Shown piece by piece: positions 364 to 9,956 of a stretch of DNA of 20,709 nucleotides. How positions within the stretch are numbered: position 1 is the stretch's first letter; every line of letters starts with the position of its first letter. Position numbers and translations under genes: made by a program. Under the pieces are notes generated by a model. It saw only the letters and a program-made list of their open reading frames with translations, did not search any database and was not told the origin of the DNA. The stretch is taken from contig DHJA01000106.1 in NCBI GenBank assembly GCA_002404095.1, positions 1 to 20,709 of the forward strand, given 5' to 3'. The DNA is from Planctomycetaceae bacterium UBA4732. GTDB lineage: Bacteria > Planctomycetota > Planctomycetia > Gemmatales > Gemmataceae.

Positions 364-1548
364 TTATTGCGCGTCCAGCAAGGCTTTCGCCTGCCGGGCC
401 ACGACCAATTCCTCATTCGTCGGCATGATCCATATCTGCACACGGCTGGCGTGGGCGTGGATCGCGGCTTCGCCCTTCGCGCCGTCGTTTTTCAGCCGGT
501 CGAGAGCGATGCCGAACCAGTCCAGATTGGCGCACACCGCCTCGCGCATCCGCGACGAGTTTTCGCCGATGCCGCCGGTGAACACGATCGCGTCGGCGCC
601 GCCGAGCAGCACGAGATAGGCGCCGAGATACTGCCGCACCGACGCGGTGAATACGTCGAGCGCCTGCTGCGACACCGGGCCGCCTTTGCGGGCGTCCTCT
701 TCAATATCGCGAAGGTCGTTGTAACCGCTCAATCCCAGCAGGCCCGAACGGTTCGCCAGATCGTCCAGCAATTGTTCCAGCGTCTTATCCGTCGCCCGCA
801 TCAGAGCCGGCAGGGCGAACACATCGAAGTCGCCGACGCGGTTGTTTTGCGGCAGGCCGCTCTGCGGACTCATGCCGAGGCTGGTGGCCTGCGATTTTCC
901 CTCTTTAATGGCGCACAAGGAGCTGCTGCCGCCGAGGTGACACGAAATGATCTTCGCGTCCGGCTTGTTCAGCAGCTGTGCCGTGCGTCCCGCAATGTAG
1001 CGATGACTGGCGCCGTGGAAACCCCAGCGACGGACGCCGTACTTCGTCGCCCATTCCAGCGGCACAGCGTACAGATACTCCGCCGGCGGAATCGACTCAT
1101 GAAACCCCGTCTCGAACGCGGCGATCAACGGGATTTCAGGCAGTTCCCGCGACAGCAGCCGCATGGCCGCGATGTAGGGCGGGTTATGGGCCGGCGCCAC
1201 GTCGGCATATGCTTCCATCGCTGACAATACCTTGTCATCGACGCGCTGTACGCCCGTCACGTCCTTAGCGTGGACGGCCTTGAAACCGATGGCCGCCAGC
1301 TCCGACGGGTCTTTCAAACAATGCCGCTTCGGGTCGGACAGCTGTTGCAAACAGAGCCGCACGGCCGCGGCGTGGTCGCGCGCCTCGACGGTCGCCTCGT
1401 CGCGGACGCCGCCGGCCTCGACGAAACAACGCGACTGGGCCGAGCCGATGCGCTCGACGCCGCCGCGCGCCAGCACACGCTCGTCCGCCATGTCGAAGAG
1501 GCGGTACTTGAAGCTGGTGCTGCCCAGATTGGCGACAAGTATTTTCAT
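364..1548 (-). CDS. ackA: Acetate kinase-family protein (microcompartment-associated)
   Basis: 394 residues, matching the AckA/BuK family length. The enzyme would convert an acyl-phosphate plus ADP to a carboxylate plus ATP, completing substrate-level phosphorylation after PduL. Visible motifs: NLGSTSFK at the N-terminus (family N-x-G-S-S-S-x-K), GFHGASHRY with His178, CHLGGSSS near residue 203, Arg237 in NNRVGD, GGIGENS, and PTNEEL near the C-terminus. It is divergent: the usual catalytic D-T-A-F-H motif reads ETGFH (Glu146), and the usual HLGNGAS reads HLGGSSS. The start is placed at the ATG at 1548 because the family begins M-K-I-L-V; an upstream in-frame ATG at 1593 lies in an inverted repeat and adds an unnatural leader. 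No good Shine-Dalgarno precedes it. The true substrate may be lactyl- or propionyl-phosphate. Confidence 0.92.
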   Translation of the reverse strand: MKILVANLGSTSFKYRLFDMADERVLARGGVERIGSAQSRCFVEAGGVRDEATVEARDHAAAVRLCLQQLSDPKRHCLKDPSELAAIGFKAVHAKDVTGVQRVDDKVLSAMEAYADVAPAHNPPYIAAMRLLSRELPEIPLIAAFETGFHESIPPAEYLYAVPLEWATKYGVRRWGFHGASHRYIAGRTAQLLNKPDAKIISCHLGGSSSLCAIKEGKSQATSLGMSPQSGLPQNNRVGDFDVFALPALMRATDKTLEQLLDDLANRSGLLGLSGYNDLRDIEEDARKGGPVSQQALDVFTASVRQYLGAYLVLLGGADAIVFTGGIGENSSRMREAVCANLDWFGIALDRLKNDGAKGEAAIHAHASRVQIWIMPTNEELVVARQAKALLDAQ

Positions 1549-1559
1549 AATGGAAACTA

Positions 1560-1642
1560 ACCGCCAAGACGCCAAGAACGCCAAGAAAGACAATTCAAAG
1601 TAAATCCGCCGTTCTTCTTGGCGTTCTTGGCGTCTTGGCGGT
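1560..1642. repeat. Perfect 28-bp inverted repeat between shell gene and ackA
   Basis: The arm at 1560-1587 is the exact reverse complement of 1615-1642, separated by a 27-nt spacer. Each arm is built from iterated 9-nt units close to CGCCAAGAA. It fills the gap between the second BMC-H gene and ackA, so the operon mRNA would fold a long hairpin there. There is no T-tract, so it looks more like a mobile repeat or mRNA processing/stability element than a simple intrinsic terminator. Confidence 0.9.
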
Positions 1643-1650
1643 GAAATATC

Positions 1651-1956
1651 CTATTTCCCAAGAAACGTCTCGATCACGTCCCGTTCCGGGCGCGGGATGA
1701 CATGCGCGCTGATCAGCTCGCCGTTGGCGCCGGCCGCCGCGGCGCCGGCGTCCACCGCCGCTCGCACCGAACCCACGTCGCCGCGCACGAACGTGGTCAC
1801 GAACGCATTGCCGATTTGCACCTGGCCGGCCAGCGTAATGTTGGCCGCCTTGCACATCGCGTCGGTCGCCGCGATGGTCGCGATCAGGCCCTTCGTCTCG
1901 ATCAGGCCCAACGCCTCGCCGTTGCCGTTACGACCGTTGTCGTGGTTGCTCGCCAT
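1651..1956 (-). CDS. BMC-H shell protein (hexamer), second copy
   Basis: 101-residue bacterial microcompartment hexamer-forming protein. The fold signature is clear: [45 protein letters not shown] and a C-terminal [10 protein letters not shown]. Compared with its neighbour at 1996-2313 it has an extra polar N-terminal stretch ([12 protein letters not shown]). The pore-loop region reads QIGNAF instead of the common KIGSGL, so the two hexamers should form chemically different pores. A good ribosome site (AGAGGA, 8 nt before ATG) sets the start. It is cotranscribed with the surrounding shell and enzyme genes, 39 nt after the first BMC-H gene. Confidence 0.97.
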
Positions 1957-1995
1957 TTATAAGGTCCTCTTTTGGGGTGTTTGTTCATATGCCGT

Positions 1996-2313
1996 TTACG
2001 CGCCAGCCGCGACGGCCGCTTGTTTTTTGCCCGCCAACGGCAGCATGGTGGCGAGGTCTTCGTGCGGCCTCGGAATGACCTGCACGCCGACCACTTCGCC
2101 GACGCGACCGGCCGCCGCGGCGCCGGCGTCGATGGCTGCCTTCACCGCCGCCACGTCGCCGACCACGAAGGCCGACACCAGACCACTGCCGATTTTCTGC
2201 CAACCGATCAAAGTCACGTTGGCCGCTTTCAACATGGCGTCGCTGGCCTCGACCAGCGGCACCAACCCCTTGGTCTCGATCACGCCAAGGGCTTCCAGGT
2301 GGTTGCCTGCCAT
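1996..2313 (-). CDS. BMC-H shell protein (hexamer), first copy
   Basis: 105-residue hexamer-type shell protein that would tile the facets of the compartment. It shows [28 protein letters not shown], the canonical pore segment [27 protein letters not shown] and VQVIPRPH. The C-terminus ends in a short alanine-rich tail ([10 protein letters not shown]). A GGGAGA ribosome site lies about 9 nt before the ATG. It follows pduL after a 56-nt gap containing a REP-like repeat. Pairing of two adjacent BMC-H genes after pduL and before ackA agrees with the known layout of PVM-type loci such as that of Planctopirus limnophila. Confidence 0.97.
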
Positions 2314-2338
2314 TAAAAAGTCTCCCGTTGGTTAGGGC

Positions 2339-2367
2339 CGCGCTCCCCTTCGGGTCGCGGCTAAACG
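2339..2367. repeat. REP-like element, copy 1 (intergenic)
   Basis: This 29-nt stretch is identical to 8274-8302 inside leuS, in the same orientation relative to transcription. On the minus strand its core reads CGACCCGAAGGGGAGCG, which can form an imperfect hairpin with a GAA loop. It begins 2 nt after the pduL stop codon and lies before the first BMC-H gene. Confidence 0.85.
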
Positions 2368-2369
2368 AT

Positions 2370-3050
2370 TTACTTAAACAGTTCCAGTTTCGTGGCGCGC
2401 GGTAGGTTCACCGCGTTGCCCTCGTCCGTGTCCAGATGCACTTCCAGCTTCGCCGCCGGCGATACGCGACAAAGTAGGTCTTCCAAGACCGCTGAACAAT
2501 CGCTCGCAATCCGCAGGTTCAGCCGGTCGCCGTCCTTGACGCCGTAGTACGCGGTGTCGGCCGGCCCCATGTGGACGTGCCGTTCGTGGCGGATCATGCC
2601 GCGCTCCAGGCGGATCATGCCGGCCGGCCCCATCAGGTAGGCGCCCGGCGAATCGCGGTGGTCGCCGCTCTTGCGCACCGGAATGTCCAGCCCCAACATC
2701 ACAGCGTCCGTAAACGCCAGCTCGACCTGGCTGTGATCGCGGCACGGCCCCAGGATGCGCACATTCGTAAGCATCCGGTGGCGTGGGCCGATCACTGTCA
2801 CCGCCTCCTCGGCCGCGAAGAAACCGTCCTGATAGAGCGCTTTGAACGGCGTCAGCGTCCGGCCTTTGCCGAAGAGCCGTTCGAGGTCTTCCTGCGTGAC
2901 GTGGCAGTGCCGCGCCGAGACATTGACCACCAGCTTGTTGGGGGCGGCGGCCTTGCCGTTGTCGGTGTGATAGCCGTTCGTCGTCTGGCCTCGGATGGCC
3001 TCGCGCACCAAACGCTCCACCAGTGAGCGGTCCAGCGTGGCCGTACTCAT
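2370..3050 (-). CDS. pduL: PduL-type phosphate acyltransferase
   Basis: 226-residue PduL, the microcompartment phosphotransacylase that exchanges CoA for phosphate on an acyl-CoA. In PVM compartments the substrate is thought to derive from lactaldehyde. Residues about 6-21 (LDRSLVERLVREAIRG) form an amphipathic helix typical of an encapsulation peptide, followed by a flexible linker to about residue 38. Two PduL domains follow. The metal-binding histidines are visible at 48 and 50 (SARHCHVT), 158 and 160 (RHVHMGP) and 205 (EVHLDTDEGNA). The ATG overlaps the DeoR stop codon (ATGA), and AGGAG sits 8 nt upstream, implying translational coupling. It is the first enzyme gene of the operon; the length is slightly above average because of the N-terminal extension. 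Confidence 0.96.
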   Translation of the reverse strand: MSTATLDRSLVERLVREAIRGQTTNGYHTDNGKAAAPNKLVVNVSARHCHVTQEDLERLFGKGRTLTPFKALYQDGFFAAEEAVTVIGPRHRMLTNVRILGPCRDHSQVELAFTDAVMLGLDIPVRKSGDHRDSPGAYLMGPAGMIRLERGMIRHERHVHMGPADTAYYGVKDGDRLNLRIASDCSAVLEDLLCRVSPAAKLEVHLDTDEGNAVNLPRATKLELFK

Positions 3051-3838
3051 AACTGCTGCTCCTCCGTCGTCTCGTCGGCCACGATCAGCCGGACTTCGCT
3101 TTGTTCCAGAAGCCGCCGCTGGTCCGATGACAAGCCATTGTCAGTGATGAACGTATCCACGGCGGCGAAGTCGCACAGAAACGCCAGCGCCGGCCGGCCG
3201 ATTTTCGTATGGTCCGCGACGACGACCACTTCGTCGGCCGAGCGCAACATCTGCCGTTCGGTCTCGACCAGCAGCAGGTTGCTGTTGAACAGCCCCTTGG
3301 CCGTCACGCCGCCGATGCTCAGGACGGCCTGGTGGACGTGAATCTCGTCCAGCATTCGCACCGTCAGCGGGCCGAGGGCGACGCCCGTTTTCGGATAAAC
3401 GTAGCCGCCGAGGATCACGAGGTCCGTCTCGTGGCTGTTGGCGAACAGGGCCGCGATGGGCAGGCTGTTCGTCACGATCTGCATCGGCCTTCCGACGAGC
3501 AGCCGGGCCACTTCGAGCGTCGTCGTACCGCCATCGAGCAGCACGGCGTCGCCGTCGCGCATCCGGGCGACAGCCGCCTTCGCCACCGCCTGTTTTTCGT
3601 CGCGCTGCGCCGCCGCCCGTTCTTCGAGGGCCGGCAGGGTCGCACTGTCGCCGACGTAGATCGCGCCGCCGTGGGTTCGCCGCAACGCTCCTTGTTGATG
3701 CCAGTAATCGAGATCGCGGCGCAACGTCGATTCCGACGCCTGAACCGCCTGGGCCAAGTCCGTCAGGGCGATGAAGCCGCGCTCACTCACCAGATCAAGT
3801 ACCCGCTGCCGACGTTTTTCGACGAGCACGGCTTCCAC
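3047..3838 (-). CDS. DeoR/GlpR-family transcriptional regulator
   Basis: 263 residues if translated from the GTG at 3838. The N-terminal winged helix-turn-helix is typical of DeoR (KRRQRVLDLVSERGFIALTDLAQAVQASESTLRRDLDYW, then GALRRTHGGA). The C-terminal DeoRC sugar-phosphate sensor carries the expected DAVLLDGGTTTLEVARLL, NSLPIAALF, VILGGYVYPKTGVALGP and ADHTKIG segments. Such proteins usually repress sugar catabolic operons and are relieved by a phosphorylated sugar; here the target is presumably the microcompartment operon it heads. A second GTG at 3826 has AGGTGG about 6 nt upstream and may be the true start, giving 259 residues. It overlaps pduL by 4 nt. A strong promoter with an inverted repeat lies upstream, suggesting autoregulation. 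Confidence 0.93.
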   Translation of the reverse strand: MEAVLVEKRRQRVLDLVSERGFIALTDLAQAVQASESTLRRDLDYWHQQGALRRTHGGAIYVGDSATLPALEERAAAQRDEKQAVAKAAVARMRDGDAVLLDGGTTTLEVARLLVGRPMQIVTNSLPIAALFANSHETDLVILGGYVYPKTGVALGPLTVRMLDEIHVHQAVLSIGGVTAKGLFNSNLLLVETERQMLRSADEVVVVADHTKIGRPALAFLCDFAAVDTFITDNGLSSDQRRLLEQSEVRLIVADETTEEQQL

Positions 3839-3876
3839 CTGCCAGAACTTGAGAGAAATCTTTCACTCCATGATTG

Positions 3877-3905
3877 ATTATGCTAATTTATGACAGCATA
3901 GTCAA
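3877..3905 (-). promoter_or_regulatory. Promoter and candidate DeoR operator of the microcompartment operon
   Basis: On the minus strand TTGACT (3900-3905) and CATAAT (3877-3882) are separated by 17 nt, a near-consensus sigma-70 promoter. Between and overlapping them lies the inverted repeat TATGCT-N10-AGCATA (3879-3900), well placed for a repressor to block RNA polymerase. A second possible -35, TTGACA, lies just upstream (3910-3915). Assignment to the DeoR protein encoded next to it is inference. Confidence 0.65.
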
Positions 3906-3979
3906 CCGTTGTCAAGCACTTCCCGTCACATTTTACCTCGGCGGTACATTTTCACAGGAATTTCGTCGTCGGGAATTGA

Positions 3980-4008
3980 TTGCGACCGCTCGGCAGGATG
4001 GGTATAGT
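3980..4008 (+). promoter_or_regulatory. Promoter of DUF5678-protease cassette 1
   Basis: TTGCGA (3980-3985), a 17-nt spacer and TATAGT (4003-4008) resemble a sigma-70 promoter. The same two hexamers, same 17-nt spacing and the flanking GATTGATTGCGACC and GGGTATAGTGAC words recur before cassette 2 at 5617-5645, while the spacers differ. This supports functional conservation. Confidence 0.65.
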
Positions 4009-4058
4009 GACCATGAGGTGGGAAAAAGCCAGACCTTTATTGGAGAGGAGGAAACGCA

Positions 4059-4304
4059 ATGGAAACGAAGTTTCTGGATATACCTTGGATCGATCCGAAT
4101 TTCGACGAAAATTGTCGCCACATCGCTCAAGAAGAGTTGGACAAATATGCTGGTCGCCACGTCGCTTACAGCTGTGATGGCACGCGCATTGTCGCCAGTG
4201 GAATCGGCTACGATGAATTAGTGCGGAACATTGAGGCCGCCGGCTTCGACCCTAGCCGTGTGGTGTGGGATTATGTGGACTCTGGCGAGGAAAGCAATCT
4301 TTAA
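4059..4304 (+). CDS. Small DUF5678-like protein, cassette 1
   Basis: 81-residue soluble protein. The central segment YAGRHVAYSCDGTRIVASG followed by YDELVRNIEAAGFDPSRVVWDYV resembles DUF5678, a family of short bacterial proteins of unknown function. The start is set by a strong GAGGAGG ribosome site about 8 nt before the ATG. The stop codon overlaps the start of the retropepsin gene (TAATG), so the two are translationally coupled. A paralogue of identical length lies at 5695-5940. Codon usage appears more A/T-rich than in flanking genes. A partner, regulator or substrate-presenting role for the adjacent protease is possible but unproven. Confidence 0.8.
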   Translation: METKFLDIPWIDPNFDENCRHIAQEELDKYAGRHVAYSCDGTRIVASGIGYDELVRNIEAAGFDPSRVVWDYVDSGEESNL

Positions 4305-4765
4305 TGAGCATGAAGTTTCCCTACCAACCCATTAAGTTAAATAAGGCGGCTTGGACCTTGCGCGGCAGGTTCGACCGTCCTCAACCCCTGCTAACGGCGG
4401 CTGTGATCGGCCCTTCAACAGGAGTTACAGTCCCCCAGCTGGGCCTACTGGATACCGGCTCCGACGATACTGTGTTTCCTGAACGATTGGCCGCGCAAAT
4501 AGGCGTCGATCTCACCAACGCCCCGACCGGAGGAGCCTCCGGCGTCGGCGGCGGAACGGCGCTCCTCCGTTACGCGGAAGTTATCTTGCGCCTCTCCGAC
4601 GGCCGCGAACACCGGCAATGGACGGCTCGCGTCGGCTTTACTTCCGCGCCCTTACGGCGTCCGCTGTTCGGCTTCGCCGGCTTCCTGCAATTCTTTACCG
4701 CTTCCTTTCACGGCGACCGCGAGGAAGTGGAACTCACGATCAACGGACTTTATCAAGGGACGTGA
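4304..4765 (+). CDS. Retropepsin-like aspartic protease, cassette 1
   Basis: 153 residues. The segment GLLDTGSDDTVFPE contains the aspartic protease active-site triad D50-T51-G52 followed by Ser53. Downstream, GVGGG (about residues 79-83) looks like the flap, and RPLFGFAGFLQFFTASF near the C-terminus matches the second hydrophobic-hydrophobic-Gly element. One D-T-G per chain implies a homodimer, as in viral and bacterial retropepsins. There is no signal peptide. The start at 4304 overlaps the preceding stop codon (TAATG) and mirrors the second copy. The last 264 nt are nearly identical to the second copy, whereas the first part is strongly diverged. The substrate is unknown. Confidence 0.85.
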   Translation: MSMKFPYQPIKLNKAAWTLRGRFDRPQPLLTAAVIGPSTGVTVPQLGLLDTGSDDTVFPERLAAQIGVDLTNAPTGGASGVGGGTALLRYAEVILRLSDGREHRQWTARVGFTSAPLRRPLFGFAGFLQFFTASFHGDREEVELTINGLYQGT

Positions 4766-4877
4766 TTACACCATGACGATGATGCAAAAGCGAACGGGCG
4801 TCATCGGCTGGCTTCCAATTCCGCCGCCAATCGGGTAACGTGGGGACGCCCCAATGGAAGAAGGGGGGGTGAAGACC

Positions 4878-5579
4878 ATGTTCCTAAAGCAATGGCTGAT
4901 CGCAGCGGTAGTCCTAGCGTCCGTTCTCGCCGTCTACGGAGCGGCGATCCTGAACTCCGGATTGCGTGCGGAGGACAGGAAGGCGGCTGAGTCGCATCCG
5001 CCCGAGGAAGGGCCAGCGCCACAGGCCGAGGCGCGCAGAGACGAGTTGGATAAACGGCTGTTAGGCAAGCAAATCCTGTTTTTTGACGCGACAGTTAAGG
5101 AGGGCGACCCGACGGACCCGACCACCCAGACCCCCGGCGCAACCTATCTCAATTGCCGCGACTCCTACACTTACTTCGTGGAAGCCATCCCGGATGAGTG
5201 GCGCAGCGGCATTTCTCGTCTTTCGGCGAAGTCGCCTTTGAAATACCGGAAGGTTTTCCACGGACTGAGGGTCGTTTATGATGAAAAAGGTAGACTTTAT
5301 AGGATCGAGAATTACTACGCAGGCGACCTCCACGGCCAGTTGGTCGCTTTCCGGGATGGCAAACGCTGGTACGAGATCACTTACCGATACGGAAATCGGG
5401 ACGGCGTATCGCGCAACTACACTCCGGCGGGCAAACTACTCTTGGAGGAGGAGTTCCGTGAGGAGAAGCGGGTGAGCAGTCGCGATTTTCACGACAACGG
5501 ACAGCCGGACACATGGGCCGTCTCCGGCGTCATTCGGGATAAGCGCGACGAAGAAGGAAGGCCCGTCCCGCACAGGTAA
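4878..5579 (+). CDS. Membrane-anchored MORN/YwqK-like repeat protein
   Basis: 233 residues. A single N-terminal hydrophobic segment (about residues 5-25, QWLIAAVVLASVLAVYGAAIL) would act as a signal anchor or signal peptide, followed by a charged, proline-rich linker. From about residue 130 onward, short repeats of the kind YDEKGRLYRIENYYAGDLHG, YRYGNRDGVSRNYTPAGKLL and FHDNGQPD resemble MORN/YwqK beta-hairpin repeats. The ATG at 4878 is preferred because a G-rich Shine-Dalgarno run lies about 8 nt upstream; an in-frame ATG at 4854 would overlap that site. It sits between the two copies of the DUF5678-protease cassette and is 112 nt from the first, so it may have its own promoter. No specific function can be assigned. 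Confidence 0.75.
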   Translation: MFLKQWLIAAVVLASVLAVYGAAILNSGLRAEDRKAAESHPPEEGPAPQAEARRDELDKRLLGKQILFFDATVKEGDPTDPTTQTPGATYLNCRDSYTYFVEAIPDEWRSGISRLSAKSPLKYRKVFHGLRVVYDEKGRLYRIENYYAGDLHGQLVAFRDGKRWYEITYRYGNRDGVSRNYTPAGKLLLEEEFREEKRVSSRDFHDNGQPDTWAVSGVIRDKRDEEGRPVPHR

Positions 5580-5616
5580 TCCGGCGACATGAAAACGCCG
5601 CTTTGCCCGCGATTGA

Positions 5617-5645
5617 TTGCGACCTTCCGGGGAGACGGGTATAGT
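5617..5645 (+). promoter_or_regulatory. Promoter of DUF5678-protease cassette 2
   Basis: TTGCGA (5617-5622), 17-nt spacer, TATAGT (5640-5645). Hexamers, spacing and flanking words match the cassette 1 promoter at 3980-4008, but the spacer sequence is different. Confidence 0.65.
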
Positions 5646-5694
5646 GACGTTAGGTGAGGAAAAGGCGAGCTTTCACCGAACGGGAGGAAATGCT

Positions 5695-5940
5695 GTGGAA
5701 ACGGACTCTGTCGATTATAAGTGGACCCACCCGAATTTCTACGAGAATAGGCGGCATATTTCCCCTGAAGAGCAGGAGAAGTATGCAGGGCGCCATGTCG
5801 CGTTTAGTTGGGATGGTACGCACATTGTCGCTAGTGGGGCCGATTTTGAGGAATTGGATAGGAACGTGACGGCGGCGGGCCTCGATCCTAGCCGTATCGT
5901 CTGGGGCTATATGGACGACCCGAATGTGAGCAACCTGTAA
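5695..5940 (+). CDS. Small DUF5678-like protein, cassette 2
   Basis: 81-residue paralogue of the protein at 4059-4304. Shared landmarks are YAGRHVAFSWDGTHIVASG, FEELDRNVTAAGLDPSRIVWGY and the C-terminal SNL. The GTG at 5695 is chosen because it aligns with the ATG of copy 1 (both read M-E-T) and GGGAGG stands about 8 nt upstream. The stop codon overlaps the next start (TAATG), exactly as in cassette 1. Divergence from copy 1 is spread evenly and length is conserved, so both copies look maintained. The function is unknown; constant coupling to an aspartic protease suggests they act together. Confidence 0.78.
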   Translation: METDSVDYKWTHPNFYENRRHISPEEQEKYAGRHVAFSWDGTHIVASGADFEELDRNVTAAGLDPSRIVWGYMDDPNVSNL

Positions 5941-6395
5941 TGAGCCTGCGCTTCCCTTACACAGCGATAAAGATCCAAAAAGCGGCCTGGACCCTTGGGG
6001 GAAGGCAGGATCGCCCTTACCCTATACTTCTGGCAGGAGTGATTGGGCCGACTCGCACGTTTCCTGTGGAAGGTCTGCTGGATACAGGCTCAGACGACAC
6101 AGTGTTTCCCGAAAGAGTGGCCGCACGCATAGGCGTCGATCTCACCCATGCGCCGACCGGAGGAGCCTCCGGCGTCGGCGGCGGAACGGCGCTCCTCCGT
6201 TATGCGGAGGTTGTCTTGCGCCTCTCCGACGGCCGCGAACACCGGCAATGGACGGCTCGCGTCGGCTTTACCTCCGCACCCTTGAAGCGTCCGCTGTTCG
6301 GTTTCGCCGGCTTCCTGCAATACTTTACCGCTTCCTTCCACGGCGACCGCGAGGAAGTGGAACTCACGATCAACCGCCTTTATCAAGGGACGTAA
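5940..6395 (+). CDS. Retropepsin-like aspartic protease, cassette 2
   Basis: 151-residue paralogue of the protein at 4304-4765. It keeps the active-site segment GLLDTGSDDTVFPE (D48-T49-G50-S51), the GVGGG flap and the C-terminal KRPLFGFAGFLQYFTASF element. Two codons are missing before the active site relative to copy 1. The start overlaps the DUF5678-like stop codon (TAATG). From 6132 to the stop the DNA differs from copy 1 at only 17 of 264 positions by my count, while the first 190 nt are strongly diverged, a pattern typical of gene conversion. The gene converges on leuS, ending 12 nt from it. Confidence 0.85.
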   Translation: MSLRFPYTAIKIQKAAWTLGGRQDRPYPILLAGVIGPTRTFPVEGLLDTGSDDTVFPERVAARIGVDLTHAPTGGASGVGGGTALLRYAEVVLRLSDGREHRQWTARVGFTSAPLKRPLFGFAGFLQYFTASFHGDREEVELTINRLYQGT

Positions 6396-6397
6396 AA

Positions 6398-6407
6398 CCT
6401 ATAGCTC

Positions 6408-6416
<9 letters not shown>
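6398..6416. repeat. CCTATAGG-type repeat overlapping the leuS stop codon
   Basis: Two CCTATAG units (CCTATAGC, CCTATAGG) fill the 12-nt gap between the convergent protease and leuS genes and extend into leuS. The TAG stop codon of leuS (6408-6410 on the minus strand) is part of a unit. The same word family appears at 1-27. Confidence 0.6.
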
Positions 6417-9098
<2,682 letters not shown>

Positions 9099-9169: not shown

Positions 9170-9203
9170 GGAGGGAAGGGAAATGATCCTAAAGGAGGTT
9201 GCC

Positions 9204-9956
9204 ATGAAGCTGTGGCCCTGGAAATATCTCGAACGGCATCCGCAATCTCATTACACGCAGCTTTTCGTCAAGGGCACGCGCATGCGCGCTCTGTCGATTT
9301 ACAGCATGTTGGTGGACGTCGATCCAGGCGACGAGACGACGCCGGAACAGATAGCCGCGGACATCCATGTGCCGGTCGAGGCGGTGCGCGAAGCCATCGC
9401 CTACGTCGAGGCCGATCCACCGGAAATCCGCGCGGATCATCAGAGGGAGACGGAACATTTTCAAGCCTGGGGCGTGTTGGACGCCGAAGGCAACTATCTC
9501 CGCGGCGACCTTCCCAAGCCGTGCCCGCAATGGCCGACCCCGACGTCGCCGCAGGACAGACTGGAACATATCATCGCTCAAGCGAAACTCTTGGATGGCG
9601 CCATGACGCAGGGCGCCTGGAAATATCTCGAACCCCATCCCATGTCGAATTATGAACAACTTTTCATCATCGGCACGCGCCTCCGCGCGGAGGTGATTTA
9701 CGCCCAGGTGACCGACGTCGATCCGGCTGACGCTCCGACGCCGGAGGAAGTCGCCGAGTCCATGAACTTGCCCGTCGAGGCGGTGCGCGAGGCAATCGCC
9801 TACTGCGAATCGGAGCCGCCGGGGCTGCTTGAGGATCATCGAAGGCAAAGGGAGGATTTGCAAGCAAGAGGCTTGATGGATGCCGAGGGCAACTACATTC
9901 GTCCACCCGGCCGCCTTTCGCCAGAGGAAGAGGAGCGGCTCGGCCTCAACGATTAA
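9204..9956 (+). CDS. Tandem DUF433-like protein (orphan antitoxin-like)
   Basis: 250 residues made of two homologous halves: about 6-101 (WKYLERHPQSHYTQLFVKGTRMR ... VPVEAVREAIAYVEADPPEI ... DAEGNYLRG) and about 139-233 (WKYLEPHPMSNYEQLFIIGTRLR ... LPVEAVREAIAYCESEPPGL ... DAEGNYIRP). Each half resembles a DUF433 protein and is close to the single-domain protein at 13219-13563. DUF433 proteins are commonly encoded before DUF5615 PIN-like toxins and are thought to be antitoxins, but no toxin follows here. The ATG at 9204 is preferred, with AGGAGG six nt upstream; an in-frame ATG at 9183 would bury that site. The second half starts with its own internal Met, consistent with fusion of duplicated genes. 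Confidence 0.78.
   Translation: MKLWPWKYLERHPQSHYTQLFVKGTRMRALSIYSMLVDVDPGDETTPEQIAADIHVPVEAVREAIAYVEADPPEIRADHQRETEHFQAWGVLDAEGNYLRGDLPKPCPQWPTPTSPQDRLEHIIAQAKLLDGAMTQGAWKYLEPHPMSNYEQLFIIGTRLRAEVIYAQVTDVDPADAPTPEEVAESMNLPVEAVREAIAYCESEPPGLLEDHRRQREDLQARGLMDAEGNYIRPPGRLSPEEEERLGLND

Follow-up and report, generated by a model that had tools for sequence, protein, structure and literature searches.

Does a retropepsin-like protease of a planctomycete act together with the small protein encoded directly before it, and if so, in what capacity? The question is raised by a contig of Planctomycetaceae bacterium UBA4732 (assembly GCA_002404095.1, DHJA01000106.1). The window analyzed here is this entire contig, 20,709 bases of a 6.8-Mb genome. 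Between a DeoR-type regulator gene (identified with Pfam) and a leucyl-tRNA synthetase-like gene (recognized by eye), it carries two copies of a two-gene cassette, each consisting of an 81-codon DUF5678-like gene followed by a retropepsin gene of 151-153 codons, joined by the stop/start overlap TAATG. The first-pass annotation had described a duplicated coupled pair with this junction about 1.6 kb apart; the open reading frames (ORFs) and the sequence agree with it, the spacing being 1636 nt from start to start. It had also proposed that the two proteins work together, for instance as a protease with its adaptor or inhibitor or as a toxin-antitoxin-like module. Recurrent adjacency and natural fusions in other genomes point the same way, the exact role being one that we infer from sequence. 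We consider it very probable that the DUF5678 protein is a dedicated functional partner of the protease.

The small proteins belong to DUF5678 (PF18929, for which Pfam gives no function) or sit at the edge of this family. They score just at its cut-off of 23.2 bits (E 7.1e-5 and 23.0 bits for small protein 1, E 6.2e-5 and 23.2 bits for small protein 2). A genome search places both above it, one of them only together with its neighbours in frame. Fourteen of 31 window-type proteins match PF18929 at E 0.01 or better, and a profile-profile comparison of these 31 with 23 other DUF5678 proteins gave a probability of 97.4 and an E-value of 1.2e-11, hhalign E-values referring to one pairwise comparison each. 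The structure model of DUF5678 has the order helix-helix-strand-strand-helix-strand. Proteases 1 and 2 match PF13650 (Pfam) at E 3.8e-4 (21.5 bits, under the cut-off of 24.3) and 1.4e-5 (26.2 bits, over it), respectively. Both carry the D-T/S-G active-site motif of retropepsins (family A2, clan AA) in the form LLDTGSDD, and modelling of a fused relative predicts the retroviral-protease fold.

We sampled PF18929 matches regardless of their neighbours in 59 related genomes (12 with matches), 294 Planctomycetota (18), three genomes of fetched loci (2), and 240 genomes of the Verrucomicrobiota phylum (8). The 69 non-window matches retained comprise 27 of 29 rows from the relatives (the two window copies omitted), 26 of 29 from the Planctomycetota (three own-genome rows omitted), all 6 from the three genomes, and 10 of 12 from the Verrucomicrobiota (two already counted). 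A retropepsin was detected by profile in 46 of the 69, directly downstream in 40 and fused in 6; by sample, this corresponds to 13/27, 22/26, 2/6, and 9/10. In seven more (L043, L047, L052, L057, L062, L064, and L113), visual inspection finds D-T-G in the following ORF. PF13650 itself is matched by 27 of 50 ORFs downstream of DUF5678. Our retropepsin profile was seeded with 20 proteases unlinked to DUF5678 and iterated over all fetched ORFs (90 at first and 150 finally), its later rounds containing tested sequences; the profile from the 20 unlinked proteases only already detected many of the ORFs neighbouring DUF5678.

The linkage was also counted from the other side. Window-type proteases are present in 17 of 95 genomes of the family (Gemmataceae). 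Among 28 fetched from other genomes (29 non-window rows minus G036:C164), 26 are preceded by a partner according to a DUF5678 profile, likewise iterated; the exceptions are an N-terminally incomplete protease and a fragment lying at the end of its contig. These 28 loci include L143, with a frameshifted partner, and L138, with a frameshifted protease, and at least 9 of them coincide with loci of the 59-relative DUF5678 sample or of the PF13650 sample. In a second protease clade of 13 loci, at least four of which (L067, L072, L074, and L076) are query loci themselves, the partner lies upstream in 12 of the 12 with a profile-detected retropepsin. In the thirteenth, L079, only 45 residues were matched, and a DUF5678 match directly precedes the partial protease match. 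Tandem copies also occur elsewhere: G011:C817 has three and G612:C190 two. The neighbourhood comparison suggested in the first-pass annotation therefore finds the two families adjacent far above chance in other genomes, on both counts (46/69 and 26/28). Furthermore, partner and protease co-diverge over 26 pairs (Mantel r 0.53), with a mean identity of 0.31 for the partner and 0.43 for the protease.

The two domains are also joined naturally. Two further proteins of the same genome (G000:C42 and G000:C187) contain both in one chain and in the same order. The L060 fusion matches 1872 proteins at E 1e-3, and among the 120 matches listed nearly all are 208-227 aa long. L087 and L100 represent a second fusion type, L087 clearly matching both Pfam families, and in three longer fusions (P0130, P0145, and P0220) the protease is preceded by what look by eye like two DUF5678 domains. 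The structure model of the fusion predicts the fold of the human immunodeficiency virus (HIV) and equine infectious anaemia virus (EIAV) proteases after a small N-terminal domain, with a low-confidence linker at about residues 81-100. Searching the 95 family genomes with the fusion gave 22 rows: 12 (nearly) full-length, 5 with the DUF5678 half only, 4 that belong to two split genes, and 1 fragment of another kind. The five DUF5678-only stretches fetched (L163, L164, L165, L166, and L167) contain no retropepsin ORF at a minimum length of 40 codons; for L164, the search reported a TGA. The genome of UBA4732 additionally carries a lone window-type DUF5678 gene on contig C199 and, on C111, a third small-protein/retropepsin pair; the kinship of its small protein shows only in profile-profile comparison (probability 94.6).

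The features of the two window copies are listed here, followed by the divergence between them.

3980..4008, plus strand: promoter-like TTGCGA-17-TATAGT of copy 1 (consensus match only)
4059..4304, plus strand: small protein 1, DUF5678-like, 81 aa, ATG start (ORF list, Pfam, profile-profile comparison)
4304..4765, plus strand: protease 1, retropepsin-like, 153 aa, LLDTGSDD, ATG within TAATG (ORF list, sequence, Pfam)
4442..4741, plus strand: repeat arm 1, 300 nt, a probable gene-conversion tract in the protease gene (91% identical to 6072-6371)
4854..5579, plus strand: 241-aa ORF between the cassettes, MORN_2 match below cut-off, not counted here as part of the module (ORF list, Pfam)
5617..5645, plus strand: promoter-like TTGCGA-17-TATAGT of copy 2 (consensus match only)
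5695..5940, plus strand: small protein 2, DUF5678-like, 81 aa if started at GTG (sequence, Pfam, profile-profile comparison)
5940..6395, plus strand: protease 2, retropepsin-like, 151 aa, LLDTGSDD, TAATG overlap (ORF list, sequence, Pfam)
6072..6371, plus strand: repeat arm 2, in the protease 2 gene (partner of 4442-4741)

In the ORF list, the frame of protease 1 is longer, from a GTG at 4265, and that of small protein 2 runs from a TTG at 5617 and encodes 107 aa. The equal length of the small proteins noted at first holds for copy 1 from its ATG and for copy 2 only with the GTG start. The same promoter-like sequence does precede both copies, as had been claimed, but as consensus matches only; the region 3850-6420 contains five promoter-like sites versus a shuffle mean of 1.0 (sd 0.9). 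At the protein level, the copies are 62% identical in the small protein and 84% in the protease, and the ratio of nonsynonymous to synonymous change (dN/dS) is 0.14 and 0.22, respectively. In the small protein, synonymous change approaches saturation (dS about 2), and in protease codons 1-46 it is past that point; it falls to 0.31 in codons 47-100 and to 0.19 in codons 101-151. Besides the 300-nt repeat, a 58-nt stretch upstream is 72% identical. The low dS of codons 47-151 together with the 91% repeat suggests that the catalytic and C-terminal part underwent gene conversion. The duplication is thus probably old and under purifying selection, the 3' two-thirds of the protease gene having been homogenized later, which leaves copies that differ in the partner and in the N-terminus of the protease. 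That both active sites were kept had been ascribed to selection. The purifying dN/dS agrees with this, but the near-identity of the active-site regions is partly a matter of the probable gene conversion.

The remainder of the window offers two observations of its own. On the minus strand, 364-3838 encodes the DeoR regulator, a PduL-type phosphate propanoyltransferase (PF06130), and what reads by eye as an acetate-kinase-like ORF, a set resembling part of the microcompartment locus of planctomycetes. A 257-aa ORF at 9183-9956 consists of two similar halves of ~130 residues, each with WKYLE.HP.S.Y.QLF (by eye).

What would the small protein do for the protease? Pairing and fusion that recur in related bacteria suggest a dedicated controller or helper. 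Starting from what is directly supported, namely the pair, its overlap, the recurrent linkage, the same-order fusions, the fold in the fused relative, purifying selection, and co-divergence, we propose that the cassette encodes a two-subunit protease. The DUF5678 protein would be translated first, and the overlapping stop and start codons probably couple translation of the retropepsin to it. The latter would be a cytoplasmic homodimer with one D-T-G per chain. Its partner would bind it near the N-terminus and the dimer interface, the point of attachment in the fusions, and would maintain the enzyme in a folded but inactive state until displaced by a signal or a substrate. DUF5678 might in this way be the counterpart of a propeptide or inhibitor, delivered as a separate chain. 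As a whole, a two-subunit protease with DUF5678 as its dedicated restraining or folding subunit is the best explanation we have, and we put its chances at about even; that the partner is specifically an inhibitor or a chaperone comes out slightly short of that. A folding or restraining subunit is favoured by the partner-first order, the overlap, the rarity of the window-type protease without its partner, the survival of the partner alone, and the attachment point. More tentatively, prokaryotic retropepsins in general might be controlled by DUF5678, as a so far unrecognized subunit that acts in trans or in cis like an inhibitory propeptide or a gatekeeper and arms a family of HIV-protease-like enzymes, with several copies per genome, co-diverging private pairs, and possibly an antiviral or conflict function.

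Several results weigh against a restraining or folding subunit. Among the 69 DUF5678 matches, 13 are without a retropepsin (the second match of L042, L044, L054, L059, L063, L086, whose contig stops 375 nt further on, L091, L093, L097, L109, L110, L114, and L121), and three loci are broken (L020, L053, and L055). Many of the counted loci are related or common to several samples, and both co-divergence and adjacency are also expected from joint inheritance of one locus. For the short retropepsins of the PF13650 sample, 28 of 39 ORFs have no profile-detected partner; the 11 with one are a lower bound (L034 has a partner at the Pfam level, and L013/L066 by profile-profile comparison, probability 94.6). 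The constant pairing of the two families claimed at first is consequently one-way only. In ~20 of the 120 listed window-type homologues, the D-T/S-G motif is altered, for example to LDIGADD (by pattern and by eye). The catalytic Asp is retained in the altered homologues seen. Such changes are not predicted by a pure protease-inhibitor relationship; they point to lost or altered activity in some pairs. The fusions with two DUF5678 domains and the lone DUF5678 genes fit an adaptor equally well. Finally, the DUF5678 model is of moderate quality (pLDDT 80, pTM 0.61), and the structure predictions cover single chains, which leaves the protease-partner interface hypothetical.

Two other arrangements of retropepsin-like genes were noted. 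At L029 (1749-2334 of G011:C1204), a retropepsin follows a different 71-aa small protein that has no convincing Pfam or PADLOC match; retropepsins may have other small partners too. Longer PF13650 proteins (~300-aa frames) stand in tandem in many of the 59 relatives (e.g., G000:C159, 4234-4533 and 5286-5402), apparently a two-gene arrangement of its own.

Among the alternatives, a substrate-recruiting role holds up best, although we regard it as unlikely. DUF5678 would then be an adaptor or specificity domain that binds a target or degron and delivers it to the retropepsin, each pair cutting its own substrate. The fusions with one or two DUF5678 domains can be read in this manner; protease-less DUF5678 genes (13/69) might act on behalf of proteases encoded at other loci. 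Across the 26 pairs, divergence is greater in the partner than in the protease, and homogenization of the catalytic part of the window copies did not extend to the partner or to the N-terminus of the protease, which have remained different. It is partner divergence, double-domain fusions, and co-diverging pairs that keep an adaptor in consideration. However, the window-type protease is almost never found without its partner, which a need for restraint or folding explains at least equally well, and no target gene is known.

A role of the pair in conflict, whether as a toxin-antitoxin-like or as an antiviral module, is rather improbable. The retropepsin would be the effector and DUF5678 an antitoxin or a trigger-sensing inhibitor, in keeping with the small first gene, the overlap, the tandem copies, the orphan partners, and the patchy presence in the family. 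Some linked proteases do match PADLOC models PDC-M08B and PDC-M52B, from weakly to clearly (best 1.4e-12, L010), but the DUF5678 proteins lack a match to PDC-M08A apart from one divergent member at 0.041. Moreover, these candidates are themselves unvalidated, and the toxicity is a supposition. Protease 2 has no match among phage records nor the fusion among plasmid records, and the window pair is surrounded by housekeeping-like genes (by eye).

We think it very improbable that DUF5678 is a substrate of the protease rather than its regulator: a substrate gene beside its protease would be linked too and the predicted low-confidence linker of the fusion could be a natural cut site, but DUF5678 is a compact conserved domain, not a variable cleavage peptide, and the two-domain fusions remain one frame in many sequences. 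Independent action within a shared operon is hardly credible, since linkage persists across widely diverged proteases and partners and in at least two fusion types, even if an interface between the two proteins is a proposal only.

The pairing provides a first functional handle on DUF5678 and suggests that there is a class of bacterial retropepsins under regulation. As the same genomes contain fused, paired, and orphan forms of the partner, the restraint of a retroviral-type protease becomes testable with small proteins. Were the partner inhibitory, retropepsins would have a protein inhibitor that is genetically encoded, and an adaptor would make a modular targeted protease.

How do these cassettes compare with known systems? 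In the literature searched, whose range left out most subscription papers and bioRxiv, we found no description of a DUF5678/retropepsin pair, and DUF5678 appeared in one paper, as a name in a proteomics table (PMC12135032). The table lists CEP02030, a DUF5678 domain protein of Plasmodiophora brassicae; as this is a eukaryote, the domain may extend beyond prokaryotes. Compared with other retropepsins of A2/clan AA (PF13650, PF13975, PF00077; the HIV and EIAV proteases), the proteases described here have a small partner upstream or fused, and some relatives of the window proteases have an altered D-T-G motif. The clan AA aspartic proteases TIGR02281 and TIGR03698 (NCBIfam) belong to the same superfamily and match faintly around the window active site, far below their curated cut-offs (12.7 bits versus 57.95 for protease 2). 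The terms that we looked for did not occur in the available part of the text of a clan AA peptidase paper (PMC2642776).

A similar layout is that of the PADLOC candidate PDC-M08, a small protein (A, 86-position model) plus a retropepsin (B); the B component of candidate PDC-M52 matches retropepsins as well. The PADLOC models that match retropepsins (PDLC04401-04405, PDLC04692, and PDLC04693) are the B components of these two candidates. The window proteases match PDC-M08B at E 0.0012 and 0.0037 (a model without a stated cut-off), and the clear match mentioned above is the L010 protease, which has a DUF5678-like partner of its own. Conversely, PDC-M08A matches neither window small protein at E 1 and none of 42 DUF5678-like proteins, the member at 0.041 being one of 50 divergent ones. 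The module therefore resembles PDC-M08 in layout and is not counted here as a member. The PDCs are described in PMC12988326 as unvalidated candidate defence systems that originate in a guilt-by-embedding preprint, and text on PDC-M08 or PDC-M52 was not found in the literature searched. The cassette layout also resembles a type II toxin-antitoxin module, toxicity being hypothetical here. APRc is reportedly a bacterial retropepsin-like enzyme. As far as the available parts of two papers go, RimB is a bacterial retropepsin that binds and regulates RimK, and RloA is one that functions together with RloB and RloC in a single process (PMC11957791, PMC12239564); "DUF" is absent from the text of PMC12239564. 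The partners of RimB and RloA are, from the same sources, an ATP-grasp ligase, a phosphodiesterase, or a transglutaminase-like membrane protein. Bacterial retropepsins with other partners have therefore already been described; the present module differs in the constancy of its small partner, very probably a dedicated one.
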